DNA of 19,483 bases from a bacterium (GTDB lineage Bacteria > SM23-31 > JAUVVT01): assembly GCA_030616165.1 (NCBI GenBank), contig JAUWXV010000045.1, positions 1 through 19,483 on the forward strand. The letters run 5' to 3'. A program made the position numbers and the translations under genes. The notes below the pieces were generated by a model. The model was not told the origin of the DNA. It did not search any database and saw only the letters and a list, made by a program, of their open reading frames with translations. Within the stretch, counting starts at the first letter, position 1. Every line of letters begins with the position of its first letter. Positions 5,530 through 13,423 of the stretch are shown in pieces.

Positions 5530-6243
5530 TTATAATTTTTCCAAAAATCCGAGCAATCTGAGTTTCCAAACCATCCAGATTGCCTCTCTAACAATTTTTC
5601 TGGACATTTTAGATCTTCCTTCAGTTCTATCTATGAAGATTATCGGTATTTCAGTAATTTTAAACCCTTTTTTCCACGCTTTATAATTCATTTCTATTTG
5701 AAAGGCATATCCTCCAGAATGGATTTTATCAAGATTAATACTTTCCAAAACTTTCCTTCTAAAACATTTATATCCGCCTGTCGAATCTTTGACTGGTAAA
5801 CCCGTTATCAGGCGCGTATAAATATTTGCACCATAACTTAAGATAAGTCTTCTCAATGGCCAGTTCACAATATTTATACCTTTTATATACCTTGAACCAA
5901 TTACAAGATCGTATTCCCTAATTTTTTCAAGAAAATTAGGTATTTCCTTCGGGTCGTGTGAAAAATCAGCATCCATCTCAAATATATAATCATATCTTTT
6001 CTGTATTGCATATTTGAAACCTGCAACATAAGCAGTACCTAAACCCATTTTCGCTTTGCGTTTAATGAGACTGACTTTATGGTCTCTTCCTGTAATTTCT
6101 TCTACAATTTTGCTAGTGCCGTCAGGAGAATTATCATCCACAACAAGTATATCAATATCAAGATTTAATTTAAAAATTTCTTCAATAATCTTCTCAATAT
6201 TTTCTGCTTCGTTATAAGTTGGTATAATAATTAAGGTTTTCAT
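5530..6243 (-). CDS. polyprenol-phosphate mannosyltransferase-like GT2 (DPM1 type)
   Basis: A 237-residue glycosyltransferase that by family moves a hexose from a nucleotide sugar to a polyprenyl phosphate. Conserved parts: IIIPTYNEAENIEKI at 5-19, VVDDNSPDGT (first acidic site), KMGLGTAYVAGF, EMDADFSHDP (DxD site), SRYIKGI, STGGYKCFRR and SGGYAFQIEM. It ends at KLRLLGFLEKL with none of the C-terminal membrane helices of the GtrB or ArnC types, so it is a soluble, DPM1-like form. The start codon is one base after the stop of the RmlD-like gene (TGA g ATG), so translation is probably coupled. Donor sugar and lipid are not resolvable. Confidence 0.9.
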   Translation of the reverse strand: MKTLIIIPTYNEAENIEKIIEEIFKLNLDIDILVVDDNSPDGTSKIVEEITGRDHKVSLIKRKAKMGLGTAYVAGFKYAIQKRYDYIFEMDADFSHDPKEIPNFLEKIREYDLVIGSRYIKGINIVNWPLRRLILSYGANIYTRLITGLPVKDSTGGYKCFRRKVLESINLDKIHSGGYAFQIEMNYKAWKKGFKITEIPIIFIDRTEGRSKMSRKIVREAIWMVWKLRLLGFLEKL

Positions 6244-8210: not shown

Positions 8211-9404
8211 TCAAAGAATTTTCAGATATGCTGCTCGTGCAATTGCCATCTCTCCGTGAATATCCTTCAGTAAATCTATTGTTTTAAGTAACTTTCCACT
8301 CTTATTGCAATTAGTGAAAAGTTCTGTTTGAATCTTATTATTATTGGTATTAAGATAACTTTTTACCACACCTGAGACCGTTATACCAAGAAGACGGATT
8401 TTTTTAGTTCTTTTGTATACGCTGTAAAACAGTTTCTTGGAGATGGAATATATCTTATTGTCTTCCCATACAAAAAATGGATATGTGCATCTTTTTGAAA
8501 AGGAAGAAAAATCACTGTATCTAAACTTAACCGCAACAGTTCTTCCTGCAAATCTCGACTCTCGTAATCTTCTTCCCACTTTTTCTGATAATTTCAAAAG
8601 AATCATATTAATAATATTTTCATCGCAGGTATCTCTTTCGAGAGTATGCTCACTTCCGATAGATTTAACTTCTTCCTCTTCGTCAAATGCTAAAACCCTA
8701 TCAGACCCTTCTCCTCTTGCAAGTTTCGACAACAGTGGACCGTTCACCCCTAAAACCCTTTCAAGTTCGTTTTCAGGATAGACTGCGATATCACCGATTG
8801 TTTTTATTCCCAGATTTTTCAGTATTCCTTCAGACTTTTTCCCAATTCCAATTAATTCTGATATCGGAAGGGGATATATTTTCTTTTCCAACTCTTCATC
8901 TGCGATTATTGTGAGCCCATCAGGCTTTTTCATATTGGTTGCAATCTTTGCAAATATCCTGTTCGAAGCTATTCCAACCGAACAGGTCAACTCCAGTTCC
9001 CTTCTTATTTCTCTTTTCAAAGATTCTCCAATTTTCCTTTCGTCTTCTCTATCTTTTACACTACCTGTTACATCCAGATATGCCTCATCTATACTTGTCG
9101 GCTCAACTTTTGGTGAATACCTGTTTAATATTTCTATTACCCTCATAGATGCATACATATACTTTTTCCCATTTGTCCTGATGAAAGTCCCATCTGGACA
9201 CTTTTTGACCGCTAAGGCTATTGGCATTCCTGATTTTACACCAAACTTTCTCGCCTCGTATGAACAGGTTGCTGCCACTCCTCTTCCTCCAGGCTCTCCT
9301 CCCACTATTACCGGCTTTCCTTTTAGTAAAGGCTGATCTCTCTGTTCTATGGATGCAAAAAATGCATCCATATCTACATGCATTATCCTTTTTTTCTTAT
9401 TCAT
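8211..9404 (-). CDS. dinB: DNA polymerase IV
   Basis: Y-family translesion DNA polymerase of 397 residues. Motifs: IMHVDMDAFFASIEQ (metal Asp residues), KPVIVGG, CSYEARKFGVKSGMP, the catalytic PTSIDEAYLDVT (SxDE), GIASNRIFAKIATNMKKPDG and the helix-hairpin-helix region LIGIGKKSEGILKNLGIKTIGDI. A C-terminal QTELF (359-363) is a likely beta-clamp-binding motif, followed by an unusual 34-residue tail. The ATG is 3 bases after the DUF6504 stop, and AAGGA overlapping that stop is its ribosome site, so the two genes are translated as a pair. Together with lexA upstream this is an SOS mutagenesis group. Confidence 0.97.
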   Translation of the reverse strand: MNKKKRIMHVDMDAFFASIEQRDQPLLKGKPVIVGGEPGGRGVAATCSYEARKFGVKSGMPIALAVKKCPDGTFIRTNGKKYMYASMRVIEILNRYSPKVEPTSIDEAYLDVTGSVKDREDERKIGESLKREIRRELELTCSVGIASNRIFAKIATNMKKPDGLTIIADEELEKKIYPLPISELIGIGKKSEGILKNLGIKTIGDIAVYPENELERVLGVNGPLLSKLARGEGSDRVLAFDEEEEVKSIGSEHTLERDTCDENIINMILLKLSEKVGRRLRESRFAGRTVAVKFRYSDFSSFSKRCTYPFFVWEDNKIYSISKKLFYSVYKRTKKIRLLGITVSGVVKSYLNTNNNKIQTELFTNCNKSGKLLKTIDLLKDIHGEMAIARAAYLKIL

Positions 9405-9407
9405 TTC

Positions 9408-9662
9408 TTATCCTTCCAGACATACTCTTGCCAGTTCCCAGGTCATATTCCTCGAGTCATAACAAAGTTCAAAACAGTCCGGTCCCCCTACCATCACAGA
9501 ATAGTGATAGTATCTATTTATCCCCTCATCACTTACCCACCCCCCATTAACCTTTACAATCTTATACACACGCTCATTCCATTTGAATCTGAGAGGCTGC
9601 ATTTTGCCGCTGCGAAAAACAGCAATCACCTCTACCGGCTCATACACATCCTCATATATCAT
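9408..9662 (-). CDS. DUF6504-like small protein coupled to DinB
   Basis: An 84-residue protein with no signal peptide. The pattern PLRFKWNERVYKIVKVNGGWV...INRYYHYSVMVGGPDCFELCYDSRNMTWELARVCLEG matches my memory of the DUF6504 family, short beta-rich proteins encoded beside Y-family polymerase genes. Its biochemical role is not known to me; the position suggests an accessory factor of translesion synthesis. GAGAGGGG precedes the ATG. It is set 3 bases before dinB. No LexA box or clear promoter is visible in the 206 bp of hairpins between it and lexA, so it may depend on read-through from lexA. Confidence 0.8.
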   Translation of the reverse strand: MIYEDVYEPVEVIAVFRSGKMQPLRFKWNERVYKIVKVNGGWVSDEGINRYYHYSVMVGGPDCFELCYDSRNMTWELARVCLEG

Positions 9663-9868: not shown

Positions 9869-10480
9869 TCACATTTTTCTTATCAGTCCGATGACCTTCC
9901 CGGCGATTCGGAATCCTGGAGTGTTTTCTTCGATGATAATAGGTCCATAGTTCTCACTTGCAGGCTCAAGGCGAACCCTCCCCTTTTCCGGATAATAGTA
10001 CTTCACAGTTGCATCATCTCCAATAACAGCCACTACAATATCCCCGGAGTCGGCGGCTGGCTGTTGGTGAACAAAAACGTGGTCGCCGTCAAAAATCCCC
10101 GCATCCTTCATACTATCTCCGCGAACCCTCAAAGCAAAAACACCCTCACCGGTAAGATAAAAATTATCGACCGCTATCTCTCCCTCTATGTTCTGTTCTG
10201 CTAATATCGGTTCACCTGCTGCCACTCTTCCCACAAGGGGAACCCTCTTGATATACCGAAAAGAGCCTCCAATTACCTCTATTCCCCTTGAAACCTTCGA
10301 GCGCCTTCTCAGATAACCCTTTCTCTCCAGCGCCCTCAGCGTCACATTAACCCCGTTCGTAGACCTTATCCCAAACCTACTCCCAATTTCCCGGAAAGTC
10401 GGCGGATACCCCTTCTCCTCTATCTCTGAGCGGATAAATTCCAGAATCCTTTTCTGCCTTTCAGTTAACGCTTTTTTCAT
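9869..10480 (-). CDS. lexA: LexA repressor (SOS regulator, S24 self-cleaving)
   Basis: A 203-residue repressor that binds SOS operators and cleaves itself when RecA filaments form. The winged-helix domain (1-70) has LTERQKRILEFI, GYPPTFREIG and the recognition region STNGVNVTLRALERKGYLRR. The cleavage bond is Ala88-Gly89 in VGRVAAGEPILA. The catalytic dyad is Ser123 (RGDSMKDAGI) and Lys160 (DDATVKYYY). Length is standard. GGAGG stands 7 bases before the ATG. Two promoters are proposed upstream: a near one at 10572-10599 and a distal one carrying a LexA box at 10861-10889. The gene looks clearly richer in G and C than its neighbours. It stands at the head of a lexA-DUF6504-dinB series. Confidence 0.97.
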   Translation of the reverse strand: MKKALTERQKRILEFIRSEIEEKGYPPTFREIGSRFGIRSTNGVNVTLRALERKGYLRRRSKVSRGIEVIGGSFRYIKRVPLVGRVAAGEPILAEQNIEGEIAVDNFYLTGEGVFALRVRGDSMKDAGIFDGDHVFVHQQPAADSGDIVVAVIGDDATVKYYYPEKGRVRLEPASENYGPIIIEENTPGFRIAGKVIGLIRKM

Positions 10481-10509
10481 AAAAATACCTCCAAAAAAGA
10501 GTGTATTGA

Positions 10510-10602
10510 TGATAAAATGTTATCAAAATATGATAAAATGTTATCAAAATGTGATAAAATATGATAAAAACATGATAAAATTTGATAAAATATTGTCAAA
10601 AA
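10510..10602. promoter_or_regulatory. phased A-tract array (probable intrinsically bent DNA) in front of lexA
   Basis: Nine A-tracts of 4-5 bases on the plus strand start at 10514, 10525, 10535, 10546, 10556, 10566, 10577, 10587 and 10598, an average of exactly 10.5 bp, the helical repeat. Most are inside repeated TGATAAAAT or TTATCAAAA units, and two units form a 21-bp direct repeat (10510 and 10531). A-tracts in phase with the helix bend DNA strongly. The array overlaps the near lexA promoter and its early transcribed region. Confidence 0.85.
10572..10599 (-). promoter_or_regulatory. proposed near promoter of lexA
   Basis: TTGACA (10599-10594), 16-base spacer, then TATCAT (10577-10572), five of six matches to the -10 consensus. 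It would start transcription near 10565, about 85 bases before lexA. No GAACN4GTTC site overlaps it; the repeated TGATAAAAT units are the only candidate operators here. Confidence 0.5.
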
Positions 10603-10940: not shown

Positions 10941-11045
10941 GTAGAGACGCATTACAATGCGTCTCTACTCTGGTAAATTTCGGTAGGACAGACATTCACG
11001 TCTGTCCTTCAATTATCATAGTCAGACAGGAATGTCTGACCTACT
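10941..11045. repeat. cluster of three GTAG...CTAC-type palindromes
   Basis: Three palindromes follow each other: 10941-10968 (13-base arms GTAGAGACGCATT), 10985-11008 (9-base arms AGGACAGAC, preceded by GGT) and 11021-11040 (8-base arms GTCAGACA, followed by CTAC). All tend to begin GTAG or end CTAC. Related units are at 14330-14358, 18492-18533 and, inside the kinase gene, 18091-18117. They resemble REP-like elements moved by RAYT transposases in other bacteria; no transposase is in the window. Confidence 0.7.
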
Positions 11046-11108
11046 ACCTCTATCATTGTTTATCATATTTTCTTTATTGTATTGCAATTTTTGGGTAATG
11101 AATAAACA

Positions 11109-11344
11109 TTATAACAAAAACAAAAATACTGCATAAATTATTGTTAACAATGCAATTGAGCCGTAAAACCAGCCAAGGGTAATAGAAAACATTACTCTAT
11201 ATCTTGATTGAACCTGCTATTTAAACCTGTAAGCATTCATATCAAATAAAAATTCATCTGTTTTAAGTCTGTTTTTTATTACCCAATCATACAATTTCCT
11301 ATACATTCTCTCGTGCCACAAAAAATAGGCATCCAGAAAACTAT
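11109..11344 (-). pseudogene. C-terminal half of a broken small membrane-protein gene
   Basis: Reading the minus strand from 11344 gives IVFW, then after a local frame change DAYFLWHERMYRKLYDWV and NAYRF, a TAG at 11217-11219, and in the same frame a further 35 codons (MFSITLGWFYGSIALLTIIYAVFLFLL) to TAA at 11109. This is the second half of a family of small membrane proteins I know only as hypothetical (KGWTVTL...FWFLDAYFLWQERLFRKLYD...). Its first half is at 13242-13423, on the other side of the endonuclease insertion. Lesions here are a short deletion (probably one of two TTTCTGG repeats) and the nonsense codon. Confidence 0.7.
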
Positions 11345-11420
11345 CGTCTGGCGGTTTGCGAAGTTCCACCGAAGGCAGAATTTGGGAGAGCGAAGCGAAG
11401 CCTTTTATTCGCAGTTATAT
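11345..11420 (-). repeat. attC-like imperfect palindrome at the end of the inserted cassette
   Basis: On the minus strand it begins with ATATAAC (11420-11414; R''-like) followed directly by TGCGAA, continues through an AAGGC/GCCTT inner stem and ends TTCGCA...CCGCCAGACG at 11345. The R' partner would be the G at 11345 joined to TTATAT, which are the first bases of the insert at the other end (13241-13236): GTTATAT is the exact complement of ATATAAC. The 76-80 bp size is within the range of attC sites. The folded stem would have an asymmetric loop of about 11 bases, larger than usual, so structural modelling is needed. Confidence 0.5.
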
Positions 11421-11487
11421 TACCCCAAGGACAAGGTTTCGAAGCAACCGCAGAGTCGTGGTTGGTGGGCTAATAGCATTTTGATTA

Positions 11488-11697
11488 TCATTTCTTTGAC
11501 AATAATAAATCCCTTCCATATTTTTCATAACAAGATGAGCAATATTTCTTCGCATGCAAGCTATGAAGGAATTTATCTTCAATATATTCTCGATAGTAGG
11601 TCTCACCAAGTAATATTTCCTTACCACAGTTGTAGCAAATATGTTGGGTCCTAGCTTTTGTTTTTTTTAAGATTTTCATATGATTATACTTCCCCAT
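11488..11697 (-). CDS. small zinc-ribbon protein (CxxC...H..H...CxxC)
   Basis: A 69-residue basic protein with metal-site spacing C21-x2-C24, H45-x2-H48 and C53-x2-C56 (ICYNCGKEIL ... HSLHAKKYCSSC), probably binding one zinc. I do not recognise a named family. Its start is 12 bases after the endonuclease stop, with AGGA 9 bases upstream of ATG 11697; ATG 11679 with GGGGAAG upstream is an alternative, giving 63 residues. Tight coupling to the endonuclease gene inside one inserted segment suggests a partner, regulator or antidote of that enzyme, which is inference. It is the last gene before the attC-like palindrome. Confidence 0.75.
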   Translation of the reverse strand: MGKYNHMKILKKTKARTQHICYNCGKEILLGETYYREYIEDKFLHSLHAKKYCSSCYEKYGRDLLLSKK

Positions 11698-11708
11698 TGC
11701 TAAAAGTC

Positions 11709-13187
11709 CTAATTCCCTATATTCTTGTAAATCCACTCATACATTTTTTTTATTGGAACATTTAGTTTATATTCGATTGGTCTCTTTGAACCAGTCCACT
11801 TAATTAATCTTTCAATTTCTAAAATACCTAAAGTCATTCTGATTTTGTACTCTTCTGGCTTTCCCTTAAAAGGCCTGTCACGTGATAGATTTTGTCCTTC
11901 AAGCATAAATAAAATTAGGTCGGTATTGATCAGATTCTGAAGTTTGAATCCTTCAATTATTTTTTTAAAAATAGTTTGAAAGTGAATTATGGGACAATAG
12001 TGTTCATAAGGATTATCTTTTCTTGCCATGGCAACAAGGGAATGTCCTTTTATATACCATTTGAAATATTTTGAACCAAATTTCTTTTCCAGTGTGGGCT
12101 TCTCTTCAATCTCTGGAGCGAGGGTAGTTAGCATCTCTTCTTTTTCCCCAGGTCTAACAAGAAGATTAGAAATCTGTTGGAAAATATTTGCCACATCTTT
12201 TATTTTGATTGTAAAAATATACCTATTTTCAGAAATCTCTTTAACTCCATTTATAAATGGGAGCTTTAATAACTTAATAATGTATTCAATATCTTCAGGT
12301 TCTATTTCAAGTTCTTCTATCTTTTCTCTTCCTGCCAAACTATCAAAGGTAAAATAGCCCAATCTATCTTGTAAAGATAGCATTTCTTCAATAATTACTC
12401 TGAATTGTTCTAATAAATTTCTTCTGGAAAGATTTTGAGTTAGTAAATCCTCTAGTTGAGAGCTTCTGTCACCTTTACCAGCAAATAAATCTTTTAATTC
12501 TGTTAAAGTAAAAGGAAACTTAGAATGTGCCTTTACAAGTTTTATTAAATCTTCTGTTTTTAGCAGGGAAACATCATACTCGTTTGCTCGTTCCTCCAAA
12601 TTTCCTCCAGAAAAACTCGGACCTACTACAACTACAAAATCAGCTTTGTTTTTCTTTTTATGGTCTCTTAAAGAAATCCAATTTACCTGCTGATCTATAA
12701 TTTTACCTGATTTACTTGTTTTACCATCAACATTAACTTTGAATGATTCTTGACCGATATTTGCTGTAAGTAGAACATCTGTATCTCCTTTACCTCCAAT
12801 AAGTTCAACTTCAAACCCCAAAAAATTAAAAGCGTCTTTTATTGCCTCTTCAAAATCTGTTGGAGAGTAACTCTTAAACTGTCTTTCTTCTAAGTATTTT
12901 ATAATCAAATTTGATTCCAGAGGAATTTTTATTGTTTCATATTTTTCTTCATGAGTTTTTTCATCACATTCTTTCAATACAAACAACCCTTTTTTAAATT
13001 TTACAAATAAAGATTTTTTCCCTTTTTGCTTTATATCTCTATAAATTATCGAATACATTGTTGCGTCTGGAGTCTTACCATCAGTCGTAATTAACCTTTC
13101 CTTTAGTGCAATTTGGGTAATCTCTTTTGAGGAAAGTGGTATTTTCTTTTTCTTCAAGATATGATATGCTGCTTCTTTGAAATTCAT
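11709..13187 (-). CDS. HARE-HTH restriction-endonuclease-like protein with PD-(D/E)XK domain
   Basis: A 492-residue protein. Residues 1-72 (FKEAAYHILKKKKIPLSSKEI ... FVKFKKGLFVLKE) match the HARE-HTH winged helix known from restriction enzymes, RNA polymerase delta and eukaryotic ASXL proteins. Residues 108-220 look like an Mrr/PD-(D/E)XK nuclease fold: FEEAIKDAFNFLGFEVELIGGKGDTDVLL (Glu113, Asp137), then VNVDGKTSKSGK, where the usual E/Q-x-K is D154-G-K156. The last 270 residues, with WYIKGHSLVAMARKDNPYEHYCP, are unassigned. The ATG at 13187 has GGAGG 8 bases upstream; the ORF could be opened at 13202, but that would place the ribosome site inside it. No methyltransferase is nearby, so a type IV (modified-DNA) or solitary defence nuclease is more likely than a classical type II system. 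It forms a two-gene unit with the zinc-ribbon gene. Confidence 0.82.
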   Translation of the reverse strand: MNFKEAAYHILKKKKIPLSSKEITQIALKERLITTDGKTPDATMYSIIYRDIKQKGKKSLFVKFKKGLFVLKECDEKTHEEKYETIKIPLESNLIIKYLEERQFKSYSPTDFEEAIKDAFNFLGFEVELIGGKGDTDVLLTANIGQESFKVNVDGKTSKSGKIIDQQVNWISLRDHKKKNKADFVVVVGPSFSGGNLEERANEYDVSLLKTEDLIKLVKAHSKFPFTLTELKDLFAGKGDRSSQLEDLLTQNLSRRNLLEQFRVIIEEMLSLQDRLGYFTFDSLAGREKIEELEIEPEDIEYIIKLLKLPFINGVKEISENRYIFTIKIKDVANIFQQISNLLVRPGEKEEMLTTLAPEIEEKPTLEKKFGSKYFKWYIKGHSLVAMARKDNPYEHYCPIIHFQTIFKKIIEGFKLQNLINTDLILFMLEGQNLSRDRPFKGKPEEYKIRMTLGILEIERLIKWTGSKRPIEYKLNVPIKKMYEWIYKNIGN

Positions 13188-13241
13188 ACAATATACCTCC
13201 ATATCTTAATGATTAAGCCATTCGCCCACGATTTCATATAA

Positions 13242-13423
13242 CAATGGAAAAAATGCAGTAAAAGTTTGAAGTTTGCTCCCCTTTAGTAATATGGCTATTA
13301 CAATAAGGGTAATTGTCCAGCCATTGATTAAAAAAAGGAATTAAAAGACATTCGCTTTATAATATCTTGAATAATCTCAATTTCTTTAAGCATATAAATG
13401 TTCAAGTTTTCCTTTTTAATCAT
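13242..13423 (-). pseudogene. N-terminal half of the broken small membrane-protein gene
   Basis: From ATG 13423 the reading frame gives an amphipathic helix (MLKEIEIIQDIIKRMSFNSF) and stops in a run of seven T. One added T restores NSFFLINGWTITLIVIAILLKG and TFTAFFPL up to the insertion point. The order NSFL-KGWTVTL, a membrane helix and then FP..FWFLDAYFLW is that of a small membrane-protein family of about 140-150 residues, function unknown to me. The continuation lies 1.9 kb away at 11109-11344. It has no strong ribosome site. The homopolymer shift could also be a sequencing error, but the insertion could not. Confidence 0.7.

Follow-up and report, generated by a model that had tools for sequence, protein, structure and literature searches.

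The locus raises the question of how a two-gene segment of 1.9 kb came to lie within a small membrane-protein gene, and of what kind of element that segment is. We addressed it in the window, that is, the whole stretch of 19,483 nucleotides of bacterial DNA that was analyzed.

The interrupted membrane-protein gene

The two parts of the host gene lie on either side of the segment:

13242-13423, minus strand: 5' half of the interrupted small membrane-protein gene, now a pseudogene, from translation and tblastn with the intact L010 protein
11109-11344, minus strand: 3' half of the same gene, starting with ATAGTTTTCTGG (IVFW), followed by about 7 missing nt and then by LDAYFLWHERMYRKLYD...

When the C-terminal half was used as a query against 193 relatives, the family was found in six other genomes, and the best match was an uninterrupted gene in genome G049 (locus L010; 71%). 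The L010 protein in turn matched the window in only two places above noise in tblastn: residues 5-31 and 31-62 corresponded to 13414-13239 in two frames (E(2)=8e-14), and residues 67-136 to 11336-11127 (E=6e-33, 74% identity). The first-pass annotation had proposed that the complementary halves of one gene flank the insert, in the correct order and on the same strand, and this was borne out; the flanks belong to one family and not to unrelated ones. The L010 DNA reads ...CCCATTGATAGTATTCTGGCATCTTGATGCA... with no interruption, and the letters that had been predicted for the empty site, CCATTGATAG, are unbroken in it; L010 is an ortholog from another lineage, not an allele of the window gene. 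Thus, a small membrane-protein gene, with relatives that are intact and uninterrupted, has received the precise insertion of an endonuclease-bearing cassette.

Other details of the first interpretation fared less well. The frame of the N-terminal half is broken at a run of seven T residues (13336-13330), to which one T was to be restored. Because all six relatives keep the spacing SFxxKGW at this position in the tblastn comparison, the run looks too long, which suggests that it is not one T short. Joining the halves was to keep the frame; it did so for four codons (IVFW), but IVFW is followed by MPIF in the window and LDAYFLW lies in a different frame. Aligning the joined flanks globally with L010 showed that about 7 nt are absent just 3' of the insert, and minus-strand translation placed an in-frame TAG at 11219-11217, ahead of the natural stop at 11111-11109. 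The host gene is thus an old wreck, with no fewer than three lesions in addition to the insert. The description of the insertion as recent is unsupported, because of these lesions and because the closest known copy of the insert is 10% diverged.

Two further features of the window were noted. A palindromic dispersed repeat lies just downstream of the split gene (10983-11106) and has about 20 partial copies in the genome. Tandem palindromes, TGATAAAATGTTATCA, were found at 10509-10601, directly upstream of lexA (9869-10480), which is followed by a DUF6504-like gene (9408-9662) and then dinB (8211-9404). Two of the palindromes are perfect copies of TGATAA-N4-TTATCA and three have one or two mismatches; they are candidate operators for LexA in an operon of SOS mutagenesis.

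Cargo genes and their archaeal near-twin

As the first-pass annotation had claimed, the intervening 1.9 kb holds two genes (13187-11709 and 11679-11488):

11709-13187, minus strand: cargo gene 1, HARE-HTH and Mrr_cat restriction-endonuclease-like protein (Pfam, PADLOC, archaeal copy)
11488-11679, minus strand: cargo gene 2, 63-aa CxxC...CxxC zinc-finger-like protein (ORF, conserved in the archaeal copy L016)

The first gene encodes 492 aa from the ATG at 13187, which is preceded by the ribosome-binding site GGAGGT, or 497 aa from an upstream ATG. Its product matched PF05066 (HARE-HTH, E=3.2e-17), PF04471 (Mrr_cat, E=4.2e-6; residues 110-222, 27.3 bits, above the curated cut-off of 21) and PADLOC REase_II (E=2.2e-6), and the Mrr_cat domain retains GDTD...DxK. 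HARE-HTH domains have been proposed as modified-base sensors (PMC11037411). The arrangement of an N-terminal HARE-HTH followed by an Mrr-type PD-(D/E/Q)xK domain with D...DxK is that of the HARE-HTH/Mrr-type modification-dependent endonucleases (PF05066 + PF04471; PMC11037411); unlike these, the window nuclease has a C-terminal region with no Pfam match, is paired with a 63-aa zinc protein and is borne on a cassette. Its domains suggest that it is probably a modification-dependent (type IV-like) restriction enzyme, predicted to cut modified foreign DNA. The 63-aa protein, which gave zinc-ribbon matches in Pfam below threshold only, is a putative accessory protein. A sequence search of the PDB with the nuclease returned nothing (no solved relative).

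The sole close relative of the cargo in the searched genome contigs was found at a locus (L016) of the archaeon Candidatus Methanoliparum thermophilum. The two-gene core is 90% identical to L016 in DNA over 1753 bp, and the 63-aa zinc protein is conserved there. The two nucleases share 86% aa identity, and a dN of 0.069 against a dS of 0.252 (dN/dS ~0.27) shows that purifying selection has acted between them. Over its first 300 bp (13187-12900), the nuclease gene is 82-84% similar to the archaeal copy, vs 88-96% elsewhere, hinting at a mosaic history. L016 lies on a 192-kb contig, no more than 3 kb from archaeal ribosomal-protein genes, which argues against contamination. Searches with the 497-aa nuclease found no other copies in 386 relatives and none in IMG/VR or phages; among 294 relatives of Methanoliparum there was one 29% relative, and plasmids gave only partial matches of 29-40%. 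Thus, there was no third intact cassette to compare.

Hairpin sites, junctions and the search for an integrase

The nature of the insert, with attC-like ends and a cassette shared with an archaeon, was absent from the earlier interpretation. Its ends carry the following features:

11345-11421, minus strand: attC-like site at the cassette 3' end, R''=AATATAAC, stem TGCGAA/TTCGCA, degenerate R' end CCG(CC)AGACG
13241-13242, minus strand: left junction CCATTG^TTATATG, a base-exact G^TT-type crossover
13217-13241, minus strand: cassette 5' end TTATATGAAATCGTGGGCGAATGGC, the rest of the R' core plus an inner inverted-repeat arm, matching at 25 of 26 positions the reverse complement of the archaeal end adjoining attC2 of L016
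11455-11477, minus strand: second arm of the inner inverted repeat (GCTATTAGCCCACCAACCACGA...)

We defined attC by 3'-end R''(RYYYAAC)/R'(GTTRRRY) cores around a hairpin. A covariance model (R1), built from six Methanoliparum (archaeal) sites only and thus without the window, detected 11420-11345 in the window (E=0.0024); we would call this site attC with reservation, as it scores no more than 23.4 bits and has a degenerate R'. Window positions 11395-11461 are 85% identical in DNA over 67 bp to archaeal attC1 and its flank (E=3.5e-15), a stretch that includes R'' and the first stem arm.

With model R1, 11 sites were detected in the Methanoliparum genome, and 15 of the 145 relatives searched also had sites. 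Across 25 sites, changes on both sides were seen in 15 of 18 pairs, with 79 compensatory cells vs 31.6 after shuffling (0/500 shuffles) and values far above those of shuffles and slid controls, in an alignment that was itself fitted to the model. The R' cores vary (GTTATATG, GTTATACG, GTTAGGCG, GTTGTGCG) around a constant GTT, and some (GTTATAT) are one base off GTTRRRY. Sites stand in same-orientation arrays, with five in L078, at least six in L077 and three each in L075 and L076. Of 32 ORFs in the cassettes examined, 27 lie on the attC strand; the other five comprise both cargo genes of L016 and, within a single cassette, three short ORFs that may be non-coding. In the window, the cargo genes and attC are all on the minus strand. 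We also considered whether the membrane-protein gene might itself travel on a cassette and rejected this, as model R1 found no attC-like site in 50 kb around five intact copies (L084-L088).

The family was also seen in other settings. The window's own genome has a second lone attC-like site (L080, G000:C17, 4312-4392; 43 bits) between ordinary genes, and an IMG/VR viral contig has a site of the same type (L038:10597-10683, 63 bits). In L077 (G059:C19), where at least six sites share one orientation, the first protein of the array is SEFIR/TIR-like, and further genes there are likely to serve defence. In Methanoliparum thermophilum, at least three attC-like arrays occur without intI (L078, L079, L016), and their cargo includes a DNA methyltransferase-like protein.

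In the archaeon, the shared core lies between two hairpins, CATATAAC...GTTATATG, at L016:3836-3907 and 5744-5824. With sites at L016:3836, 5744 and 7280 and five in L078, the archaeal loci qualify as CALINs, which have two or more attC spaced by under 4 kb and no intI (here, none above the cut-off). The gene core is inverted relative to the cassette ends between L016 and the window: the archaeal cargo gene faces against its attC, and the window copy has the opposite core orientation. The core is flanked by an inner inverted repeat, ATCGTGGGCGAAYRGC, which is a possible substrate for a core flip. In L016, a 16-bp inverted repeat through which the core may have been inverted lies around the cargo core at L016:3936-3960 and 5720-5750.

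Precise bounds had been claimed for the insert. This holds for the left edge, which is exact (13242/13241), but the right edge is ambiguous by 7 bp. Because archaeal homology starts exactly at GTTATATG, with the insert beginning at its second base, and target homology to L010 extends through CCATTG and then stops, the left junction is G^TT. It is best read as the integron-integrase crossover point, here in a G^AT secondary site. The uninterrupted L010 reads CCATTG^ATAG, a 5'-GAT-3' cut after G and so of the 5'-GWT-3' form of secondary sites; IntI1 has been reported to cleave G^A at 5'-GAT-3' secondary sites (PMC10127599).

The right edge falls at 11345/11344 by target homology, which resumes after CCATTG at ATAGTTTTCTGG (11/12 matching L010), or at 11352/11351 by the attC consensus, which would end 7 nt earlier (AAACCG/CCAGACG/ATAG, slashes marking the boundaries). 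The extra 7 nt, CCAGACG, resemble the R' right half TTAGACG with TT replaced by CC; they may be what is left of a second cassette, or R' may have mutated. We set aside a right edge directly after AAACCG, which would give the in-frame PLPDDSFLDAYF as the ancestral protein: the relatives all read FWxLD, and it is at ATAG that the DNA again becomes homologous to L010. The flanks, CCATTG on the left and CCAGACGATAG on the right, hold no exact target-site duplication.

No intI scored above the NCBIfam cut-off in the window's own genome (90% complete) or in Methanoliparum or the class relatives tested; the same search was positive in 53 of 386 other genomes. No R1/R2-type sites were found on intI contigs (20 IntI contigs and loci), many of which break close to intI. 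A tyrosine recombinase of 370 aa, about 4 kb from L010, was considered as an IntI and set aside, since it scores below the IntI cut-off. Archaeal cassette arrays are mostly CALINs that lack an integrase, according to passages of PMC9668308.

Probable capture of a cassette, and alternatives

Taken together, these data make it very probable that one integron gene cassette makes up the 1.9-kb insert and that recombination of the integron-integrase type placed it at a secondary (attG-like) G^AT site, outside any integron, in the membrane-protein gene. We infer the enzyme, the circular intermediate and the direction of transfer in this event. The excised circular cassette would carry one attC, and its bottom strand, once folded, would be joined at R' (G^TT) to the CCATTG^ATAG target, giving CCATTG/TTATATG...genes...attC/ATAG with the genes sense to attC, as the window reads. 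Because there is no recognisable intI in the genome, the integrase would not be encoded there at present: it would have worked in trans or would since have been lost. The insertion would have broken the host gene, or completed its breaking, and the host gene would have decayed further afterwards while the cargo nuclease remained intact. Against this reading stand the lack of an intI above the cut-off in either genome and of such a hairpin beside any intI found, the imperfect right junction and the degenerate R'.

The same observations were weighed under other explanations. That the hairpin-flanked cassettes form a cross-domain pool, moving singly between archaea and bacteria by a recombinase other than canonical IntI and with no integron platform on either side, seems unlikely. 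A non-autonomous transposon or MITE-like element, moved by a transposase acting on terminal inverted repeats (GTTATATG...CATATAAC), would account for the inverted repeats at both ends of L016 and for the similar hairpins dispersed in Methanoliparum. Such an element is hard to reconcile with same-orientation hairpin arrays of differing cargo, in which there is one hairpin per unit and the genes lie on the hairpin strand, or with R'/R'' cores that vary yet retain AAC/GTT with covariation; as the insertion also has no clear target-site duplication and a left junction exactly at G^TT, we consider this quite unlikely.

It is very unlikely that a non-IntI tyrosine recombinase, or some other recombinase of single-stranded hairpins, acts on these attC-like sites. 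Neither genome has a recognisable intI, other tyrosine recombinases are present, and no such hairpin was found beside an intI, all of which would fit such an enzyme; yet every formal attC feature is there (AAC/GTT cores, hairpin, array polarity), and CALINs without intI are the commonest archaeal form in the relevant passages of PMC9668308. Both genomes are draft assemblies, so an assembly chimera or binning contamination in place of a biological insertion was also considered, and we regard it as extremely unlikely: the gene halves flank the insert base-precisely with lineage-specific sequence, the rest of the window consists of ordinary bacterial genes, the archaeal copy is anchored by its ribosomal-protein neighbours on the 192-kb contig, and 90% identity between the copies is incompatible with cross-contamination.

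Capture of an integron cassette at a secondary site has precedents. Loot et al. (2024 Nat Microbiol), as cited in PMC11023631 and PMC12444791, describe both natural and experimental cases of cassette insertion at attG sites. As in the secondary or attG insertions covered by those citations and by passages of Souque et al. (2023, PMC10127599), the window has a lone cassette that lies outside an integron, interrupts an ordinary gene at a short site of G^WT type and keeps its polarity. It differs from the insertions described there in that the genome lacks intI, the cassette pool is shared with a methanogenic archaeon and 7 extra nt are present at the right junction. Passages of Ghaly et al. (2022, PMC9668308) document one archaeal/bacterial cassette at 92% identity. 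The intI-less archaeal attC arrays and a cassette about 90% identical between archaeon and bacterium are common to that work and ours; unlike the cases in those passages, the bacterial copy here is at a lone secondary site and the core orientation is flipped between the copies. Methanoliparum is not named in the main-text passages of PMC9668308.

It was only recently found that cassettes can be captured at non-integron sites and that archaea and bacteria share cassettes, and natural cases whose junction is resolved to the base are useful. One cassette shows both here, with a near-twin in an archaeal array and a lone copy that breaks a bacterial gene in a genome lacking intI. Its restriction-type nuclease cargo fits the view of integron cassettes as carriers of defence genes.
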